From assembly GCF_002217405.1 (NCBI RefSeq), contig NZ_MUHE01000018.1:9476-73475 (forward strand): DNA of 64,000 nt, read 5' to 3'. Made by a program: the position numbers and the translations under genes. Under the pieces are notes generated by a model. The model did not search any database. It was not told the origin of the DNA and was given only the letters and a program-made list of their open reading frames with translations. This DNA is from Flavobacterium psychrophilum DSM 3660 = ATCC 49418. Its GTDB lineage: Bacteria; Bacteroidota; Bacteroidia; Flavobacteriales; Flavobacteriaceae. Of the stretch, positions 15,322 to 59,322 are shown piece by piece (within the stretch, counting starts at the first letter, position 1; each line of letters opens with the position of its first letter).

Positions 15322-15351
15322 TTGCCACATCAAAAATAAAGTGTAATTTTG
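15322..15351 (+). promoter_or_regulatory. rpsO promoter, consensus -33/-7
   Basis: TTG at 15322-15324, a 19-nt spacer and TAATTTTG at 15344-15351 exactly match the Bacteroidetes primary sigma consensus. It implies a leader of about 50 nt before the rpsO ATG at 15407. The leader contains an imperfect AATCCG/CGGAATT hairpin near 15358-15376. Confidence 0.8.
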
Positions 15352-15406
15352 CACTCGAATCCGAGAAACGGAATTCATACATAAAAATCATTAAACAAAT
15401 ATTGGA

Positions 15407-15673
15407 ATGTATTTAACTAAAGAGATTAAAGAAGAAATCTTCGCTAAACACGGAGAAAAAACAAACACAGGAAAAGCAGAAGCACAAATTGCTTTATTTA
15501 CTTTCAGAATTAGCCACTTAACAGAGCACCTGAAAAAAAATCGTCACGATTATAACACTGAGCGTTCACTTGTTCTTTTAGTAGGTAAAAGAAGATCTTT
15601 ACTAGACTACTTGAAGAAAAAAGAAATCAACCGTTACCGTGAGATTATCAAAGAATTGGGTATTAGAAAATAA
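15407..15673 (+). CDS. rpsO: 30S ribosomal protein S15
   Basis: 88-residue primary 16S rRNA-binding protein of the small subunit platform. It shows KAEAQIALFTFRISHLTEHL, HDYNTERSLVLLVGKRRSLL and DYLKKKEINRYREIIKELGI, the normal S15 signature and length. It is followed by its own terminator and then by pnp, an arrangement shared with many bacteria. No Shine-Dalgarno sequence precedes the ATG, as usual in this group. Confidence 0.99.
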   Translation: MYLTKEIKEEIFAKHGEKTNTGKAEAQIALFTFRISHLTEHLKKNRHDYNTERSLVLLVGKRRSLLDYLKKKEINRYREIIKELGIRK

Positions 15674-21796: not shown

Positions 21797-22246
21797 TTAA
21801 ACTAATAGTTTCTTTACGATACTAGATATTGTTTTTCCTTCGGCTTGACCGCCTAGTTGTGCTGATGCTAATCCCATTACTTTTCCCATAGAGGCTATTC
21901 CTGAAGCGCCTGTTTCGGCAATAATTTTTGCAATAATCGCTTCTACTTCTTGTTCTGATAGTTGTGCTGGTAAGAATTTTTCTATTACTACAATTTGTGC
22001 TAATTCTGGTTCGGCAAGGTCTGGACGGTTTTGTGCTGCAAAAATAGTTGCGCTGTCTTTACGCATTTTTACTAGTTTTTGTAGAATTTTTATTTCGTCT
22101 GCTTCTGTGATATCTTCTTTAGTTCCTGTTGCTGTTTGGGCTAGTAATATTTCTGATTTGATGGCGCGAAGTGCTTCTAGGGCAACGGTGTCTTTTGCAC
22201 GCATTGCTGTTTTCATTTCGTCCATGATGTGTGTTGATAAACTCAT
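21797..22246 (-). CDS. GatB/YqeY domain-containing protein
   Basis: 149-residue protein of the YqeY family, related to the tail of amidotransferase GatB and proposed to bind tRNA. Signatures are MKTAMRAKDTVALEALRAIKS, EIKILQKLVKMRKDSATIF, VIEKFLPAQLSEQEVEAII and GKVMGLASAQLGGQAEGKTI. It is downstream of ftsZ on the same strand but separated by 329 nt containing a dispersed repeat, and lies next to a tRNA-Arg gene. The precise function is unknown. Confidence 0.94.
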   Translation of the reverse strand: MSLSTHIMDEMKTAMRAKDTVALEALRAIKSEILLAQTATGTKEDITEADEIKILQKLVKMRKDSATIFAAQNRPDLAEPELAQIVVIEKFLPAQLSEQEVEAIIAKIIAETGASGIASMGKVMGLASAQLGGQAEGKTISSIVKKLLV

Positions 22247-22322
22247 TTTTTTGATTTTAGATGACAGATTTTAGATGGCAGATGGGATTTCAAAAAAAAT
22301 GAAATCTTATATCTTATTTTTT

Positions 22323-22463
22323 GCCCCTGATGGCAATGGAAAGCCTTTTGAGAGAAAATGTATTTTTTCTTGAAGCAGAAAAGCGACCAAAGGAAGCTCT
22401 TTCTGGTTTGTAGAAAAAAGCATTTTGCGAAAAAAGCTTGTAATGTACAGCAGGAATTGGCTC
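22323..22463 (+). repeat. dispersed structured repeat, copy 1 (long form)
   Basis: 141-nt element beginning GCCCCTGATGGCAATGGAAA and ending AGCAGGAATTGGCTC. The inner helix AATGTATTTTTTCT (22357-22370) pairs with AGAAAAAAGCATT (22412-22424). Inside it is a GCGACCAAAGGAAGCTC segment shared with copy 3 (57796-57937). It occupies most of the 330-nt gap between yqeY and ftsZ. The rest of the gap is AT-rich with GATTTTAGAT-like words and no gene. Confidence 0.75.
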
Positions 22464-22575
22464 GACAAATTTAGTAAAAATAAATTTATATTTTGGTACT
22501 TATTTTGTAGGTTGTATGGTTGGAAAATAACCCGAAAAATGGTTAGAGGTTTCGGGTTTTAGTTTTTTTTTCTGT

Positions 22576-24558
22576 TTAATCTACGTTGTCGTGTAGGAAT
22601 GAGTTGTTTGATCGTAACTGGATTTCGTCGTTACCATCGGTTCCTAATGAGATACGGGATCTGCTATTGTCTATTGTGTTGTTTGAGATGTCTATTCCCA
22701 TACGTTTGTATGCTGGTTCTTTTTCGAACTCATCTACTTTTGATGCGTTGTTGTGAAATTTATAGTTAAATTCTTTCATTTTACGACGGCGTTCTTCGGA
22801 TCTCATGCGTAAGGAGTCTTCGATAGACATTTCTAGCGGTGAGATTTCGTTTGCTGTGTTTGGGGTGCTATATTTTGGGGTTTCTACCTGCTTCATGGTG
22901 ATATTTAGCTCGGTAGGAATGGTTTCTACTACTACATTTTCGGCTTTTTTGGCTTCAAATAATTGGTTTTCTACTTCCATATAGGCTTCGAGCGAATGTT
23001 TGATAACTCCGTTTTGAGTTACTTCGGTCATGGGTACGAATTCTACTGCTTGGTTTACTTTGATGTCTTTTATTTCGGTTGTTAGATCGAATGTTAGTCT
23101 ATCGGTATTTGCTGTTTGGGTTGTTTTTTGTATTGGTAAATCGAATGTAAATGCGATTTGTTCTTGTTCTTTTATTAGAAATTGCGGATCGACTACTTCT
23201 ATTTGCTTGACTAGTTCACTATCGATGGTGTCTTTTACTGGTGGCGAGGTGAAATAAAAATCATTAACATCGATTGCTTTTGATGAAACTACTTCGAAAG
23301 TGACGTCTAAATTCTTGATTAATTCTGTTGTTGGCACTAAATCCATTTTGAAATATGCTTCAACAGGGTTTGGCAATTCTTCGTCTAGGGCAAATACTAT
23401 TTTTTCTTCTGCAATAGGGGTTTCTAATGTTTTTAGTGGTTCGGTAATTACATTTGATGAGAAATCGAATCCTTGTGCTTGGTATTTTTGGGTTAGATCA
23501 CGAACAATTTTTTGGTCGTCTTCTAGGGCATGGATTATTTTTTTAGGTTCTATGTTTACAATTTCTGCTTGTTGTTCTACACAAAATCCGGTTGCAATAA
23601 TGGTTACTGCTATTTTATCTCCTAGTTCTTCTTCTTCTCCAACCCCCATAATAATATTGGCGCTGTGTCCTGCTTCTGCTTGGATATAATCGTTTATTTC
23701 TCCTATCTCATCGATAGTAATTTCGTTAGTTCCAGAAACGATAAGCAACAATACGTTTTTGGCTCCTGCTATTTTATTGTCATTTAAGAGTGGTGAATCT
23801 AATGCGGATACGATGGCTTCTTTGGCTCTGTTTTCGCCTTCGGCAGTGGCAGATCCCATGATGGCTGTTCCTGAATTAGATAATACCGTTTTGGCATCTT
23901 TTAAATCGATGTTTTGTGTGTAATGGTGTGTTATTACTTCTGCAATACCACGTGATGCGGTTGCTAAAACTTCGTCTGCTTTAGAGAATCCTGCTTTGAA
24001 ACCAAGATTACCGTACACTTCTCTTAGTTTGTTATTATTGATAACAATAAGTGAATCTACTTGTTTTCTTAGTTTTTCGACACCTAAAAGCGCTTGTTCG
24101 ATACGTACTTTTCCTTCGAATTGAAATGGAATTGTTACGATACCTACGGTTAAGATGTCTCTTTCTCTTGCTAATTGTGCAATGACTGGTGCGGCACCTG
24201 TTCCTGTTCCTCCACCCATTCCTGCGGTGATAAAAACCATTTTAGTGTTGCCGTCTAGCATTTTTTCTATTTCGGCAATGCTTTCTATTGCTGATTGTTG
24301 TCCTACTTCTGGGTTTGCTCCTGCTCCTAATCCTTCGGTTAGGTTTACTCCTAGCTGAATTTTATTAGGCACTACACTGTTGTCTAGTGCTTGGGAATCT
24401 GTATTACAAACGATAAAATCGACTCCTTTTATCCCTTGTTTAAACATGTGGTTTATGGCGTTGCTTCCGCCTCCACCTACACCTATTACTTTAATTACAT
24501 TTGATTGGTTCTTTGGTAAATCAAATGAAATACTTCCAAATTCTGAGTTGCTTTCCAT
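22576..24558 (-). CDS. ftsZ: cell division protein FtsZ
   Basis: Tubulin-like GTPase that forms the division ring. The N-terminal GTPase core (about residues 20-320) has VGGGGSNAINHM, the signature GGGTGTG at 115-121, and GIVTIPFQFEG. At 660 residues it is far longer than the usual 350-400, because of a roughly 330-residue acidic, low-conservation C-terminal region, common in Bacteroidetes. It ends with a basic RRRKMKEFNYKFH block and an ISLGTDGNDEIQLRSNNSFL tail. It is the last gene of the dcw cluster, 46 nt after ftsA. Confidence 0.98.
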   Translation of the reverse strand: MESNSEFGSISFDLPKNQSNVIKVIGVGGGGSNAINHMFKQGIKGVDFIVCNTDSQALDNSVVPNKIQLGVNLTEGLGAGANPEVGQQSAIESIAEIEKMLDGNTKMVFITAGMGGGTGTGAAPVIAQLARERDILTVGIVTIPFQFEGKVRIEQALLGVEKLRKQVDSLIVINNNKLREVYGNLGFKAGFSKADEVLATASRGIAEVITHHYTQNIDLKDAKTVLSNSGTAIMGSATAEGENRAKEAIVSALDSPLLNDNKIAGAKNVLLLIVSGTNEITIDEIGEINDYIQAEAGHSANIIMGVGEEEELGDKIAVTIIATGFCVEQQAEIVNIEPKKIIHALEDDQKIVRDLTQKYQAQGFDFSSNVITEPLKTLETPIAEEKIVFALDEELPNPVEAYFKMDLVPTTELIKNLDVTFEVVSSKAIDVNDFYFTSPPVKDTIDSELVKQIEVVDPQFLIKEQEQIAFTFDLPIQKTTQTANTDRLTFDLTTEIKDIKVNQAVEFVPMTEVTQNGVIKHSLEAYMEVENQLFEAKKAENVVVETIPTELNITMKQVETPKYSTPNTANEISPLEMSIEDSLRMRSEERRRKMKEFNYKFHNNASKVDEFEKEPAYKRMGIDISNNTIDNSRSRISLGTDGNDEIQLRSNNSFLHDNVD

Positions 24559-40608: not shown

Positions 40609-41565
40609 TTATTTTTTTGGTTTATATTTAGATTTTTGAAAAATAGCTGCGGCATCCATTGCCATCATTTCCTGCATCGGAATATCGTTATTTTTCATAA
40701 ACGAACGTACTATTTGCAAACCAAACCAGGCCCCTATTCGACCAGGTGTTTCATTATCTGAAATTAATCCGAATTTAGAAAATGGCGACGGACTTATAAA
40801 ACGCTGTGATAATTTAGCATCTGTGTCATATAATAGCTTCTCTTCAATAAAAAATCTCCACATATTAGCCTCGTTATCTTGAGCGTATTTAAGCTGTTCC
40901 GGTGTGTAACAAATCTTGTCTCCATTTGAATATTCTGGCAATAATACATCATTAAAATACAATTGTTTTCCTGAATATATCATCAGTGATAATAAATCTT
41001 TTGTAACTGGTGGTTTTACTTTTGTTCTAGAAAAACTTTCTACAATATCTGGTAATATTTGAGACGGCTCGAAGGTTTGCTTCATGTAATTTGGAAATTC
41101 GTAGAACTTATGATTTTTACCTAAATACAATTCTAACGAAATAATTAATGCTTTTTCAGTATAAATTACCTTATAATCTGTATCCATCTCCTGAATTACA
41201 GTATATACTTTTGGAATTTGTGTTTTTGGATAATAGTATTTAATGTAACGAAACAAATCCTCTATTTCGGTGGTTTCTTTATCGAAACTCCCATAACGTT
41301 TTTCTACTTCGGCATACAATTCTCTCCAAAGTGGATTGGTCATTTTATCGACCAAAATCGAATCCGAAATAGATGGCGGAAAAAATTCTGGATATTGCAA
41401 TTTTAATTTTGGCAATTCGCTTGGTGGTGTTTCAAAAAAAGCTTTGTCGTAGCGATCTACTTTTATACTTACTGGTATTTCTGCTACTTTTTTTTGAATT
41501 TCGCTTTTTTTAGAACACGAAATAATGGCAAATAGGAATAGAACGAGTATTAAATATTTTTTCAT
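40609..41565 (-). CDS. gldB: gliding motility lipoprotein GldB
   Basis: 318-residue lipoprotein with the lipobox IISC after a short hydrophobic leader (KKYLILVLFLFAIISC). Family features include PVSIKVDRYDKAFFETP, EIEDLFRYIKYYYP, PPVTKDLLSLMIYSGKQLYF and a C-terminal GRIGAWFGLQIVRSF...MDAAAIFQKSKYKP. GldB is required for gliding and for the type IX secretion/motility apparatus in F. johnsoniae. ATG 41565 (MKKYLIL) is preferred over 41571. A dispersed repeat starts 15 nt upstream. Confidence 0.95.
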   Translation of the reverse strand: MKKYLILVLFLFAIISCSKKSEIQKKVAEIPVSIKVDRYDKAFFETPPSELPKLKLQYPEFFPPSISDSILVDKMTNPLWRELYAEVEKRYGSFDKETTEIEDLFRYIKYYYPKTQIPKVYTVIQEMDTDYKVIYTEKALIISLELYLGKNHKFYEFPNYMKQTFEPSQILPDIVESFSRTKVKPPVTKDLLSLMIYSGKQLYFNDVLLPEYSNGDKICYTPEQLKYAQDNEANMWRFFIEEKLLYDTDAKLSQRFISPSPFSKFGLISDNETPGRIGAWFGLQIVRSFMKNNDIPMQEMMAMDAAAIFQKSKYKPKK

Positions 41566-41579
41566 AAACATGATTTTTT

Positions 41580-41657
41580 AGCCCAGATAAGAGTGGAAAT
41601 CCTTTTATTTTTTCCTTCAAAAAATAAAAGATTGAAACGTATAGCTGGAATTGCTCC
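41580..41657 (+). repeat. dispersed structured repeat, copy 2 (short form)
   Basis: 78-nt element AGCCCAGATAAGAGTGGAAA ... GAAACGTATAGCTGGAATTG ending in CTCC. Its centre is a perfect 12-bp hairpin, CTTTTATTTTTT (41602-41613) and AAAAAATAAAAG (41619-41630), around CCTTC. Both ends match copies 1 and 3. It fills the gldB-nadE gap and ends 8 nt before the nadE -7 box. Confidence 0.8.
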
Positions 41658-41664
41658 TAATTAT

Positions 41665-41706: not shown

Positions 41707-42513
41707 ATGCAAAAAAATAGTACCATAAATTGTGAAAAAGTTAACGAACATATTGTAAACTGGCTAAAAACCTATGCACAAAAGGCTAAAGTAAATGGTT
41801 TTGTGATAGGGATTTCGGGCGGAATAGATTCGGCAGTTACCGCTACTTTATGTGCGCAAACAGGACTAACGGTTTTGTGTGTAGAAATGCCTATACACCA
41901 AGCACAAAGTCATATAAATAGAGCGCAAGAACATATTATGCAGCTTAAGAAAAATTTTGCAAATGTAACTGACACTCGTGTAAATTTGACCCCTGTTTTC
42001 GAGAGTTTTAAGACCGAAGTTCCTGTTTCTAACAATGAAGCAAAACTAAATTTGTCTCTTGCAAACACTAGGGCGAGGTTGCGCATGACAAGTTTGTATT
42101 ATTTGGCCGGGATTCACGGATTGTTGGTTGCAGGTACGGGCAATAAGGTAGAAGATTTTGGCGTTGGTTTTTTTACCAAATACGGAGATGGAGGTGTAGA
42201 TTTGAGTCCTATTGCCGATTTGATGAAAAGTGATGTTCGTGCTCTTGCTACTTATCTTAATGTGCCAGAATCTATACAAAAAGCAGCTCCGACTGATGGA
42301 TTGTTTGGTGATGATCGAAGCGACGAAGACCAACTTGGTGCTAGTTATACCGAATTAGAATGGGCGATGATTGCTTTAGAAAACGGCAAGAAATCTGATG
42401 ACTTTACAGATCGTGAGAAGGTTGTTTTTGAAATTTACGAACGACTAAACACGATTAATCAGCACAAAATGAACCCCATTCCTGTTTGCTTAATTCCTGA
42501 AATTTACAAATAA
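41707..42513 (+). CDS. nadE: NAD(+) synthase, ammonia-dependent type
   Basis: 268-residue PP-loop enzyme that amidates nicotinate adenine dinucleotide to NAD. It shows the ATP-pyrophosphatase motif SGGIDSAVTATL, NTRARLRMTSLYYLAG, GTGNKVEDFGVGFFTKYGDG and DLSPIADLMKSDV. No glutaminase domain is present, so it should use free ammonia. The start at 41707 (MQKNSTINCEKV) follows the promoter. Confidence 0.96.
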   Translation: MQKNSTINCEKVNEHIVNWLKTYAQKAKVNGFVIGISGGIDSAVTATLCAQTGLTVLCVEMPIHQAQSHINRAQEHIMQLKKNFANVTDTRVNLTPVFESFKTEVPVSNNEAKLNLSLANTRARLRMTSLYYLAGIHGLLVAGTGNKVEDFGVGFFTKYGDGGVDLSPIADLMKSDVRALATYLNVPESIQKAAPTDGLFGDDRSDEDQLGASYTELEWAMIALENGKKSDDFTDREKVVFEIYERLNTINQHKMNPIPVCLIPEIYK

Positions 42514-57052: not shown

Positions 57053-57754
57053 TTATCTTCTCAACACTTCGTCAATCATTCCGTATTCTTTTGCTTGGTC
57101 GGCAATCATCCAGTAATCACGTTCAGAATCTGCGTGTACTTTGTCGAAAGTTTGCCCTGAATGGTGCGATATAATGTTATATAATTCGTCTTTTAGCTTG
57201 AGCATTTCACGTAAATTAATCTCCATATCAGTAGCAACTCCTTGTGCGCCGCCTGATGGTTGGTGAATCATTACTCGCGAGTGTGGTAATGCCGAACGTT
57301 TTCCTGCTGCTCCAGCGCATAACAGAACTGCGCCCATAGAGGCTGCCATTCCTGTGCAAATTGTGGCTACATCTGGTTTGATGTATTGCATGGTGTCATA
57401 AATTCCTAATCCTGCATAAACGCTTCCTCCTGGAGAGTTTAGGTAAATTTGTATGTCTTTACTAGCATCTGCACTTTCTAGGAAAAGCAATTGTGCTTGT
57501 ACGATGTTTGCTATTTGATCGTCTATGCCTGTTCCTAGGAATATAATCCTGTCCATCATTAGTCTTGAAAATACGTCTAGTTGAGAGATGTTTAACTGGC
57601 GTTCTTCTATAATATATGGGGTCATGTTTGTTGGGCTCATGGCGCCCACTATTTTATCATAATACATTGCATTGACACCTTGGTGTTTTGTTGCAAATTT
57701 TTTAAATTCCTTCGCCTGTTCGAACATAGCTCTTGGGTCTTTTCTGTAATTCAT
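57053..57754 (-). CDS. clpP: ATP-dependent Clp protease proteolytic subunit ClpP
   Basis: 233-residue serine protease subunit forming the ClpXP chamber. The catalytic Ser lies in CTGMAASMGAVLLCAG, the His in SRVMIHQPSGG and the Asp in the following IHLREML-like region (MEINLREMLKLKDELYN). About 35 extra residues precede the usual N-terminus (MNYRKDPRAMFEQAKEFKKF), as often in this phylum. Transcription probably comes from upstream of tig, but a dispersed repeat lies between. Confidence 0.98.
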   Translation of the reverse strand: MNYRKDPRAMFEQAKEFKKFATKHQGVNAMYYDKIVGAMSPTNMTPYIIEERQLNISQLDVFSRLMMDRIIFLGTGIDDQIANIVQAQLLFLESADASKDIQIYLNSPGGSVYAGLGIYDTMQYIKPDVATICTGMAASMGAVLLCAGAAGKRSALPHSRVMIHQPSGGAQGVATDMEINLREMLKLKDELYNIISHHSGQTFDKVHADSERDYWMIADQAKEYGMIDEVLRR

Positions 57755-57795
57755 CTTAAAATTAATTATAAATTATTAATTATCAATTATTAGTT

Positions 57796-57937
57796 AGCCC
57801 AGATAGTAGTGAAAAGCTTTTTGCGGGCTGGTTGTATTTTTTCTTGCAGGAAAAGAGCGACCAGAGGAAGCTCCTTTTTTTGCTTAGAAAAAAACAACTA
57901 GACAAAAAAACTTGAAACGAATAGCTGGATTGGCTTC
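57796..57937 (+). repeat. dispersed structured repeat, copy 3 (long form)
   Basis: 142-nt element AGCCCAGATAGTAGTGAAAA ... GAAACGAATAGCTGGATTGG ending in CTTC. Inner helix GTTGTATTTTTTCT (57831-57844) pairs with AGAAAAAAACAAC (57886-57898). Where copy 1 has AATG/CATT at the base of this helix, this copy has GTTG/CAAC, so pairing is preserved. The loop shares GCGACCAGAGGAAGCTC with copy 1. It lies between clpP and tig. Confidence 0.8.
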
Positions 57938-57946
57938 AAATAAAAA

Positions 57947-57996: not shown

Positions 57997-59322
57997 TTAT
58001 TCGCCGTACATTGCTGCAACAAATTGCTCATAAGTGACTTCTTTTGTGGTAGGGTTTGCTTTTTCGACTAACATTTGTAAAAGTTTGTCTTTTGTTACTT
58101 GTTCTGACAATCTTTTTACTTCTTCTTGGTTTGACAAAACTCTTGCTACAATTCCTTCTACTTCTTGGTCTGTTGGGTTTGTTTGCCCGAACTGTGCCAT
58201 TTGCTGACGGATTGATTTTGAGGTAAATGTTTTGAGATCTTCAAAGTTGATTTTGATATCACTTTGTGCTAAAGCACGTCCTTCGATCATTTGAAAACGC
58301 AATCCTTTTTCTGATCGAATGTATTCTATTTCTGCTTCTGCTGGGGATAGGTTTTTTTCTCCTGCTGTTTGTAACCATTTTATCAGAAATTCTTTTGGCA
58401 AATCGAATTTTGTGTTTTCGATTAATGCGTTTACAACGTCGTCTGTTAGTTTTTGTTCTGCTTGTTCTGCGAACTGAGATTCTGCGTCTTCTTTTATTTT
58501 TGCTTTTAATTCTTCTAGCGTTGCTACGTTTCCTTCGCCAAAAAGTTTGTCGAATAGTTCTTGGTTTAGTTCTGCTGGCTCGGTTTCGTTAATGTTTTCT
58601 ATTGTAAAGTTTACCTCTACTTCTAATCCGTGTACGTCATCGTGGCTTACTTTTAGGTAATCCATTAGTTGATGGTCGTCTTGAAATAGTCCTTTTGTGT
58701 TTACTGTAACTATATCTCCTGATTTTTTTCCGATAAATTTTTGTGCCGTTTCTTTGTCTTTAAATATGTCTAGAGAAATGGTAATTGGATTGTTTATTCC
58801 TGCTTCTTGGTTTGTAAATGTTCCTGAAATTTCTGTTTTTTCTGAAACAATTTCTTGAGGAATGGCTTTTCCGAATTGTTTTTGGATACGTGTTACTTGC
58901 CCGTCGATTAATTTGTCATCGGCAGTAACGACATATTTTACTACGTTGGTTTTTGCATCAAGATCTAAAGTGAAAAATGGTGCTAATCCTACTTCGTATT
59001 GAAAAGTTAGTGCTTCTACTTCCCAATTGAAAATTTCTTTTTCGATGGCTAACGGTGTTCCTAGCAATGCTAATCTTTCGGCAGTGATAAATCTTTCTAA
59101 AGCTAAATCGACTACTTTTTTTACTTCTTCTTGTTTAATTGCTTTTCCGTATTGTTTTTCTACTAAATCTTTTGGCACAGCTCCTTTACGGAAGCCTTTT
59201 ACGGTTGCTAGAGGCATTTTTTCGTTGATGCGTTTTGCTACTTGCCCTTTGTAATCTGTAGGCATTACTGTAATTTCGATAATTTCCATTACTGGACTTA
59301 TTGCTATTCTTCTAATATCCAT
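57997..59322 (-). CDS. tig: trigger factor
   Basis: 441-residue ribosome-associated chaperone. The ribosome-binding tail motif is GFRKGAVPKDLVEKQYGKAI, preceded by the N-terminal strand pair. The middle region corresponds to the peptidyl-prolyl isomerase domain position but is divergent (VSEKTEISGTFTNQ). The C-terminal substrate arm is charged and helical. Start MDIRRIAISPVMEI aligns with family N-termini. It is driven by a consensus promoter at 59356-59385. Confidence 0.93.
   Translation of the reverse strand: MDIRRIAISPVMEIIEITVMPTDYKGQVAKRINEKMPLATVKGFRKGAVPKDLVEKQYGKAIKQEEVKKVVDLALERFITAERLALLGTPLAIEKEIFNWEVEALTFQYEVGLAPFFTLDLDAKTNVVKYVVTADDKLIDGQVTRIQKQFGKAIPQEIVSEKTEISGTFTNQEAGINNPITISLDIFKDKETAQKFIGKKSGDIVTVNTKGLFQDDHQLMDYLKVSHDDVHGLEVEVNFTIENINETEPAELNQELFDKLFGEGNVATLEELKAKIKEDAESQFAEQAEQKLTDDVVNALIENTKFDLPKEFLIKWLQTAGEKNLSPAEAEIEYIRSEKGLRFQMIEGRALAQSDIKINFEDLKTFTSKSIRQQMAQFGQTNPTDQEVEGIVARVLSNQEEVKRLSEQVTKDKLLQMLVEKANPTTKEVTYEQFVAAMYGE

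Follow-up and report, generated by a model that had tools for sequence, protein, structure and literature searches.

MITEs carry terminal inverted repeats that are cut by a DDE transposase and are accompanied by target duplications. Flavo-1 elements are like MITE-like elements, such as the Correia elements, in being small, non-autonomous, intergenic and self-folding; unlike MITEs, they lacked a convincing target duplication, with an imperfect direct repeat at one site. REP repeats are often found next to stop codons. Like REP and BIME elements (RAYT, TnpA-REP), Flavo-1 is a high-copy intergenic imperfect palindrome. REPs are given as 20–40 bp long, most of them tagged GTAG or CGTC, in the accessible part of PMC3733652, whereas type-A Flavo-1 has neither tag, starts with YYTAGCCC and falls in a length range of 67–150 nt for Flavo-1 matches; unlike in REP/RAYT systems, the transposase genes at 20 chosen Y1_Tnp loci of the genus are not flanked by Flavo-1 arrays. 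Subclass 2.6 TnpA-Y1 genes of Bacteroidetes are flanked by unusual structures, according to the accessible text of PMC6006769. Compared by description only, these are repeated secondary structures of Bacteroidetes without GTAG, as is Flavo-1.

Flavo-1 itself has been catalogued as an RNA. The accessible part of Weinberg 2010 (PMC2864571) gives it as a probable RNA of Bacteroidetes that is not cis-regulatory, and a review (PMC9029176, likewise in its accessible part) places it among the abundant bacterial sRNA families with no function entered. The available text of a Flavobacterium psychrophilum transcriptome study (PMC9723704) reports that Flavo-1 matches run indistinctly in the sense or antisense direction relative to transcribed regions, that many fall outside these and that nothing hints at a function. 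No study that handles Flavo-1 as a repeat was found in the open-access literature. In contrast to the listing of RF01705 as a probable RNA, dispersed-repeat behaviour without a detectable promoter of its own was observed here. The present analysis adds evidence that Flavo-1 behaves as a dispersed, structured and probably mobile repeat, one whose unit is defined, whose placement shows a tendency and which includes a conserved subfamily of long copies.

Flavo-1 copies in the window

The window, meaning the whole 64,000-nucleotide stretch of F. psychrophilum DNA that was analysed, contains three copies, listed here with their terminal hairpins and adjoining genes.

21797..22246, minus strand: GatB/YqeY-like gene adjoining copy 1 (NCBIfam GatE, E 1.1e-05, far under the cut-off)
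22322..22467, plus strand: copy 1, long-form Flavo-1 between ftsZ and the GatB/YqeY-like gene, antisense to both
22381..22399, plus strand: terminal hairpin of copy 1, AAGC-GACCAAAGGAA-GCTC, whose outermost A.C is a non-standard pair
22576..24558, minus strand: ftsZ, adjoining copy 1 (NCBIfam FtsZ, E 2e-104, above the cut-off)
40609..41571, minus strand: gldB, adjoining copy 2 (NCBIfam GldB, E 4.4e-123, above the cut-off)
41579..41660, plus strand: copy 2, short type-A Flavo-1 between the divergent gldB and nadE
41707..42513, plus strand: nadE, adjoining copy 2 (NCBIfam nadE domain model, E 8e-56, above the cut-off)
57053..57754, minus strand: clpP, adjoining copy 3 (NCBIfam ClpP, E 1.1e-111, above the cut-off)
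57795..57940, plus strand: copy 3, long-form Flavo-1 between tig and clpP, antisense to both
57855..57873, plus strand: terminal hairpin of copy 3, GAGC-GACCAGAGGAA-GCTC, paired in the computed fold and also present in other long forms and in alignment A4
57997..59322, minus strand: tig (trigger factor), adjoining copy 3 (NCBIfam tig, E 1.8e-46)

The sole NCBIfam match of tig scores 158.8 bits, under the curated cut-off of 180.2. The gene at 21797..22246, whose only matches are the weak GatE ones, is presumably yqeY.

A cmscan search against Rfam matched RF01705 (Flavo-1) to copy 1 at 22319–22461 (49.3 bits), copy 2 at 41576–41655 (73.4 bits) and copy 3 at 57792–57935 (49.0 bits), all above the gathering score of 42 bits, and detected no further Flavo-1 above threshold in the 64-kb window. 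The copies scored 50.3, 94.5 and 50.3 bits, respectively, and took the coordinates listed above, with R1, a covariance model of our own built from 30 copies of the window's genome, short copy 2 included. The three loci are therefore Flavo-1 elements, and the family, already known, is real at all three. The first-pass annotation, made from the letters alone, had proposed three copies, all on the plus strand, and had suggested a check against Flavo-1 in Rfam. The identity was confirmed, and both cmscan and R1 place all three on the plus strand; as a count of the repeat, three was far too low, since the genome holds at least 94 matches above threshold. The 5' and 3' blocks said to be common to the copies stand as a consensus, and the strings are not identical: copy 1 has CAATGGAAA and TGTAATGTACAGC, and the counterparts in copy 3 are TAGTGAAAA and GAAACGAATAGC.

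Compared with the catalogued RF01705, the window copies have the same sequence blocks and hairpin, and two of them add a conserved long-form tip module. Copies 1 and 3, of about 145 nt, have a tip of 82–83 nt where the Rfam model has 15 positions; they belong to a long subfamily whose terminal hairpin falls outside Rfam's 76 positions.

The same window also holds an S15-Flavobacteria ribosomal-protein leader (RF03161, 63.5 bits) at 15344–15409 on the plus strand, directly upstream of the ORF at 15407–15673.

The hairpin and the strand that folds

GTTG/CAAC in one long form had been set against AATG/CATT in the other as compensatory change, and both stretches indeed pair in the computed folds. 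The long copies fold along their full length (z −3.14 and −2.60 against dinucleotide shuffles). An 83-nt stand-in for the short form, taken from elsewhere in the same genome (L018), folded moderately better than its shuffles; with a z of only −1.10, the evidence for short copies is covariation, not energy.

RNAalifold gave 23 pairs for 30 copies of the window's genome (alignment A1), 11 of them with two-sided change and with 16 of 690 cells broken or gapped. Two larger alignments had been fitted to the structure of the model, a procedure that biases counts towards pairing. In A3, 100 distinct model-aligned rows that include the 30 model copies and six low-scoring opposite-strand rows, the share of paired cells is 96.6%, compared with 74.9% after column shuffling, both sides change in 435 cells against a shuffle mean of 103, and pairing falls to 45–57% when the partner is slid by 1–3 columns. 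The corresponding values for A2, 41 rows from other genomes without the model copies, were 94.7% against 69.3% paired and 189 against 49 both-side changes; 20 of the 23 pairs show two-sided change in each of A3 and A2. Alignments that were not fitted to the structure, A1 and A4 (22 long forms), are also rich in two-sided changes. The Flavo-1 hairpin is maintained by compensatory change, in its own genome and in other species. Building a covariance model, searching Flavobacterium genomes with it and testing covariation had all been proposed; covariation was strong, and a plain sequence repeat showing none was not what emerged.

Two symmetric purine-rich 3x3 internal loops are conserved on the plus strand, mostly 5'-GNA-3' facing 5'-GNA-3' as read from the alignment letters. 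The hairpin tip is variable, and loop types differ between the window's genome and a complete relative (G010). The long form has a conserved terminal hairpin, typically (G/A)AGC-GACCNNNGGAA-GCTC; 21 of 27 long forms could be parsed by pattern, with one loop-closing pair being C-G in 18 and T-A in 3, and 13 of 84 parsed cells of this stem were not Watson–Crick. In 16 of 21 pairs of orthologous copies, changes on both sides outnumbered those on one side, in keeping with selection at the locus; this is tempered by the finding that changes leaving the pair unpaired were at least as many as both-sided ones, also in 16 of 21 pairs.

Wobble pairs bear on which strand folds. A3 contains 38 G.T against 9 A.C cells. 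Minimum-energy folds of 117 inner stems had 82 G-U pairs on the plus strand against 23 on the minus strand, and the plus strand was more stable in 74 and less stable in 40. A2 has no G.T excess (12 G.T against 17 A.C), with 11 of the 17 A.C cells coming from one column that is register-shifted in long forms; without that column the counts are, by subtraction, 11 against 6. An alignment-free count over the core of 118 of 165 copies gave 53 A.C against 30 G.T, driven by two register-shifted positions, and by subtraction 6 against 16 once positions 17 and 18 are removed. What has been kept seems to be the plus strand, in single-stranded form as RNA or DNA, on evidence that is good though not clean.

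Copies, placement and turnover

The window's genome (2.64 Mb, 83 contigs) gave 124 RF01705 matches at E up to 10, with at least 94 above threshold, a lower bound because 150 of 842 candidates were scored. Copy 3 reached 34.7 bits in this genome-wide search, under the cut-off, though 49.0 in the cmscan of the window. For the analyses below, 110 of the 124 matches were used (at least 25.9 bits, 16 of them below the cut-off); at least three of the 14 left out were long forms, and the ends of five long copies were reset to wider BLAST extents.

These 110 copies fall into four rough architectures: 48 of type A, 35 of type B, 18 of type C and nine long forms. Type A is short, and type B has an extra 3' (and 5') module and likewise ends in GCTCCT. 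Type C has GCGTTAGGG and AGCCCGACCC ends and is closed by TAACGC. The type-A unit, as read from 83 anchored copies, is conserved from about two pyrimidines before TAGCCC to AGCTCCT, so that its ends are YYTAGCCC and AGCTCCT, followed by an A-rich fading tail. Foreign palindromes sometimes invade tips and arms, CCCGAAGCTTCGGG in loci L119 and L121 and CTTCGACTGCGCTCAGGGTGAC-like ones in L121 and L123.

Several further observations concern individual copies. In the tig–clpP spacer, the palindrome CCCGAAGCTTCGGG sits inside opposite Flavo-1 arms in L119 and L121 and breaks the fold. A mosaic type occurs at C22:30838, C18:44558, C45:256798 and C67:5496 of the window's genome, where the 3' arm is replaced by a TTGCTTCGC(C/T)AGTTCGC-like stretch followed by a GCTCC-like end. 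Closely paired copies were noted from coordinates in the window's genome and G010. Four near-identical type-C copies lie close to contig ends of the window's genome (G000: C15, C20, C29 and C47), which suggests that a longer repeat broke the assembly.

G010 (3.45 Mb) has 55 matches above threshold. Apart from the four contig-end copies, the closest pair is 96.3% alike in the window's genome and 93.4% in G010, and pairwise identity gave no sign of a recent burst in either. Flavo-1 was found above the cut-off in 112 of 121 genomes of the genus, where up to 35 candidates per genome were scored and counts per genome are minima, and matched in 55 of 196 genomes of the order (53 above the cut-off), covering four of its families. 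None of 14 control genomes had a match above the cut-off, and weak matches at E up to 10 occurred in 10 of them, so sub-threshold matches need care. Nine genus genomes gave no match; their version of the small gene next to copy 1 is only 66–70% identical to that of the window, which suggests a clade without the element, yet some genomes at 70% hold many copies. Flavo-1-like copies (39–73 bits, R1) were also seen in clpP loci of Chryseobacterium (L143, L145 and L146) and of a Flavobacteriaceae MAG (L156). Two further loci, L106 (CALPKO020000062.1, titled Bdellovibrio) and L127 (CAMCVI010000004.1, titled Chryseobacterium gleum), encode ClpP 92% and 86% identical to that of the window and are possibly mislabelled MAGs.

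Most copies avoid genes. With genes called by a simple longest-ORF script, so that some overlapped ORFs may be spurious, four of 110 copies in the window's genome and three of 55 in G010 lie wholly inside an ORF of at least 90 codons, and 11 and 3 overlap one partially. Between tandem genes, antisense copies outnumber sense copies about two to one in both genomes, 44 to 17 in the window's genome and 26 to 12 in G010 (combined, 70 of 99 antisense and 29 sense, p 4.6e-5). The bias weakens to 34 against 17 (p 0.024) in a stricter set of the window's genome, restricted to copies of at least 42 bits with three of the four near-identical contig-end copies removed, and this counts against the mobile reading set out below. 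The antisense excess is a different measure from that of PMC9723704 as far as its accessible text goes, and a modest sample could miss a bias of about 2:1. No replication-strand bias was seen in G010 (27 against 28, with the axis fitted to sampled GC skew).

For genes that lie beyond the 3' end and point towards the element, the stop codon is within 15 nt in 24 of 67 cases in the window's genome and 11 of 31 in G010; the figures for the 5' end are 5 of 28 and 3 of 17. Within the 12 nt that follow the element, 79 of 141 copies have an A-run of at least four, compared with 74 of 564 control windows, the 141 being those of 165 copies with a recognisable 3' end. If A-tracts were preferred, antisense copies that follow a stop codon and sense copies directly ahead of a start codon would both be accounted for.

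Signals that the element might bring with it were searched for in its flanks. Upstream of about −4, the 83 type-A copies have no conserved sequence and nothing promoter-like. TAnnTTTG occurs upstream in 15 of 162 flanks on the plus strand against 7 of 162 further out, and in 16 against 12 on the minus strand; reading away from the element it occurs in 15 and 10 of 162. An own promoter on either strand was thus rejected, as there are no conserved upstream positions and no clear TAnnTTTG excess in the 162 flanks (a comparison of raw counts). An own intrinsic terminator was likewise rejected, terminator-like hairpins being found under a strict rule in just 6, 2, 1 and 2 of 162 flanks in the four arrangements.

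Orthologous spacers differ between species in whether they contain an element. At tig–clpP, 12 of 29 Flavobacterium-group loci (L104–L131 and L153, of 80 fetched) have Flavo-1, 11 by the model and L119 by eye, always antisense and after the tig terminator-like hairpin. At ftsZ–yqeY it is present in 12 of 30 loci in one orientation and in two architectures, some copies long and some with type-B ends, and at gldB–nadE in 3 of 30 loci in one orientation (30 of 120 matched genomes). The relatives closest by NadE among the 120 matched genus genomes are G038 (85%), which is without copies 1 and 2, and G098 (82%), which is without copy 2. Two genes that lie within about 12 nt of each other in L107, L122, L126, L128 and L131 have an element between them in L125; the same spacer is longer in other species, and in L104 and L105 elements are found close to the same gene. 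Other spacers too are filled in some species and not in others. Of nine long-form copies at tig–clpP, six fall in one supported clade and two in another, so these insertions look old and repeatedly lost. Copies at this site can pass down a lineage and persist, an outcome also expected of a host function, and this again counts against the mobile reading.

Among the compared genomes, no new insertion was seen and no clean empty site yielded exact junctions; the genomes are too widely diverged for such a junction to be read. The mean longest common word in 14-nt flanks was 3.62 against 3.41 for mismatched flanks in 77 copies (3 of 100 shuffles as high), and 3.79 against 3.44 in 53 copies (2 of 100). 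This slight excess, with no fixed length, is unconvincing as a target-site duplication. At one site, the filled locus L111 (site X) has GAAAATGAAATTTCT before and GAAAATGATTTTTTTCT after the element, an imperfect direct repeat that could be an imperfect duplication or part of the type-B module. Inverted repeats are not in excess in the flanks outside the unit; the Flavo-1 arms themselves pair as the hairpin.

A proposed mobile element and rival readings

A fold under selection and a hairpin-prone mobile unit had been offered as alternatives for this repeat. Each proved partly true: covariation speaks for the fold, and copy number, site-by-site presence and absence and mosaic architectures support mobility. 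The reading we favour, with moderate confidence, is that Flavo-1 is an intergenic repeat of Flavobacteriales, non-autonomous and present in many copies, whose turnover resembles that of a mobile element, and is not a dedicated small-RNA gene. The element is probably mobile, as judged from the distribution of its copies. Spread of the unit would depend on an enzyme recognising the plus strand in its folded state, whether as single-stranded DNA or as RNA. Insertion would take place next to A-tracts, that is, at U-tracts after genes and A-rich leaders before start codons, and such entry would produce the orientation bias. Effects on the host would be local, a hairpin being added to any transcript that reads through.

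The mobilising enzyme would, as far as tested, be other than a RAYT/Y1 transposase. No PF01797 (Y1_Tnp) match was found in the window's genome, and five of the nine genus genomes without Flavo-1 have one. Flavo-1 occurs at two of 20 chosen Y1_Tnp loci (16 genus genomes, 108,122 bases), about chance density by estimate, and no Flavo-1 array stands beside the Y1_Tnp gene in these 20 loci, taken together as one set. RAYT/Y1 was therefore rejected as the mobiliser on its absence from the window's genome and the lack of enrichment at the 20 chosen loci; a caveat to the absence is that REPtrons can be lost (PMC3733652, in its accessible part). Y1_Tnp loci had arrays of other kinds. Two of four inspected, L301:3039–3290 (G062) and L316:1676–2382 (G042), hold hairpin arrays such as CCCACGGTTTCAACCGTGGG or GCGGTTGAAACCGC, apparently a repeat family distinct from Flavo-1, and in L314:1818–2379 (G010) a 26-bp unit (AAATGTATCGAGCCGATGGCTCT plus spacer) is repeated in tandem about 17 times close to a Y1_Tnp gene.

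It is possible, if doubtful, that Flavo-1 represents an undescribed mode of moving DNA, one that would combine a folding plus strand with symmetric GNA/GNA-type loops, placement at A-tracts, palindrome swaps at the tip and an enzyme other than RAYT/Y1, perhaps through an RNA or single-stranded DNA copy.

Among the rivals to the mobile reading, a cis-acting mRNA element, in which the hairpin stabilises, terminates or tunes a message from its 3' or 5' untranslated region, is unlikely. It would suit the stop codons within 15 nt, commoner at the 3' than at the 5' end in both genomes, and the TAnnTTTG-like stretch seen by eye in several genomes just upstream of the ftsZ–yqeY element on the yqeY strand. 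Some published matches overlap transcribed 5' regions (PMC9723704, in the accessible text), which also counts against the mobile reading. However, 70 of 99 tandem copies would put the minus strand into the mRNA, and the fold looks better kept on the plus strand; by eye, the tig–clpP copy falls between the terminator-like hairpin of tig and a promoter-like stretch, and 27 of 30 genomes do without Flavo-1 at gldB–nadE.

Improbable, too, is the family of trans-acting small-RNA genes implied by the Rfam type 'Gene; sRNA'. Deep covariation, purine-rich internal loops on one strand only and TAnnTTTG upstream on the plus strand (15 of 162 against 7 of 162 as raw counts) fit such genes, but the 83 type-A copies share no promoter, TAnnTTTG shows no clear excess, and one genome carries at least 94 similar copies whose presence is patchy per site.

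BIMEs are bound by gyrase, and Flavo-1 might by analogy be a BIME-like DNA site, kept by the host to bind a protein or sense supercoiling. There is little probability in this either: the copies are numerous, palindromic, mostly intergenic and probably long-lived at tig–clpP, as such a site would be, but orthologous sites are empty in many genomes, wobble pairs are asymmetric towards the plus strand, and replication-strand bias was absent.

Improbable as well is mutational covariation, in which hairpin-templated repair would keep quasi-palindromes perfect without selection: A3 pairs 7–178 and 11–170 show all four Watson–Crick types with zero G.T, and some copies have tips replaced wholesale by other palindromes, but internal-loop mismatches are conserved, not corrected, and G.T exceeds A.C in A3, unlike strand-neutral correction (the smaller A2 is opposite, 12 against 17).

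Rereading Flavo-1 as a dispersed repeat would keep many matches from receiving RNA-gene annotations, would agree with the earlier observation of matches in both senses and would define a concrete search for its mobilising enzyme. If mobile, Flavo-1 would commonly supply new hairpins next to core genes, ftsZ, clpP and tig among them.
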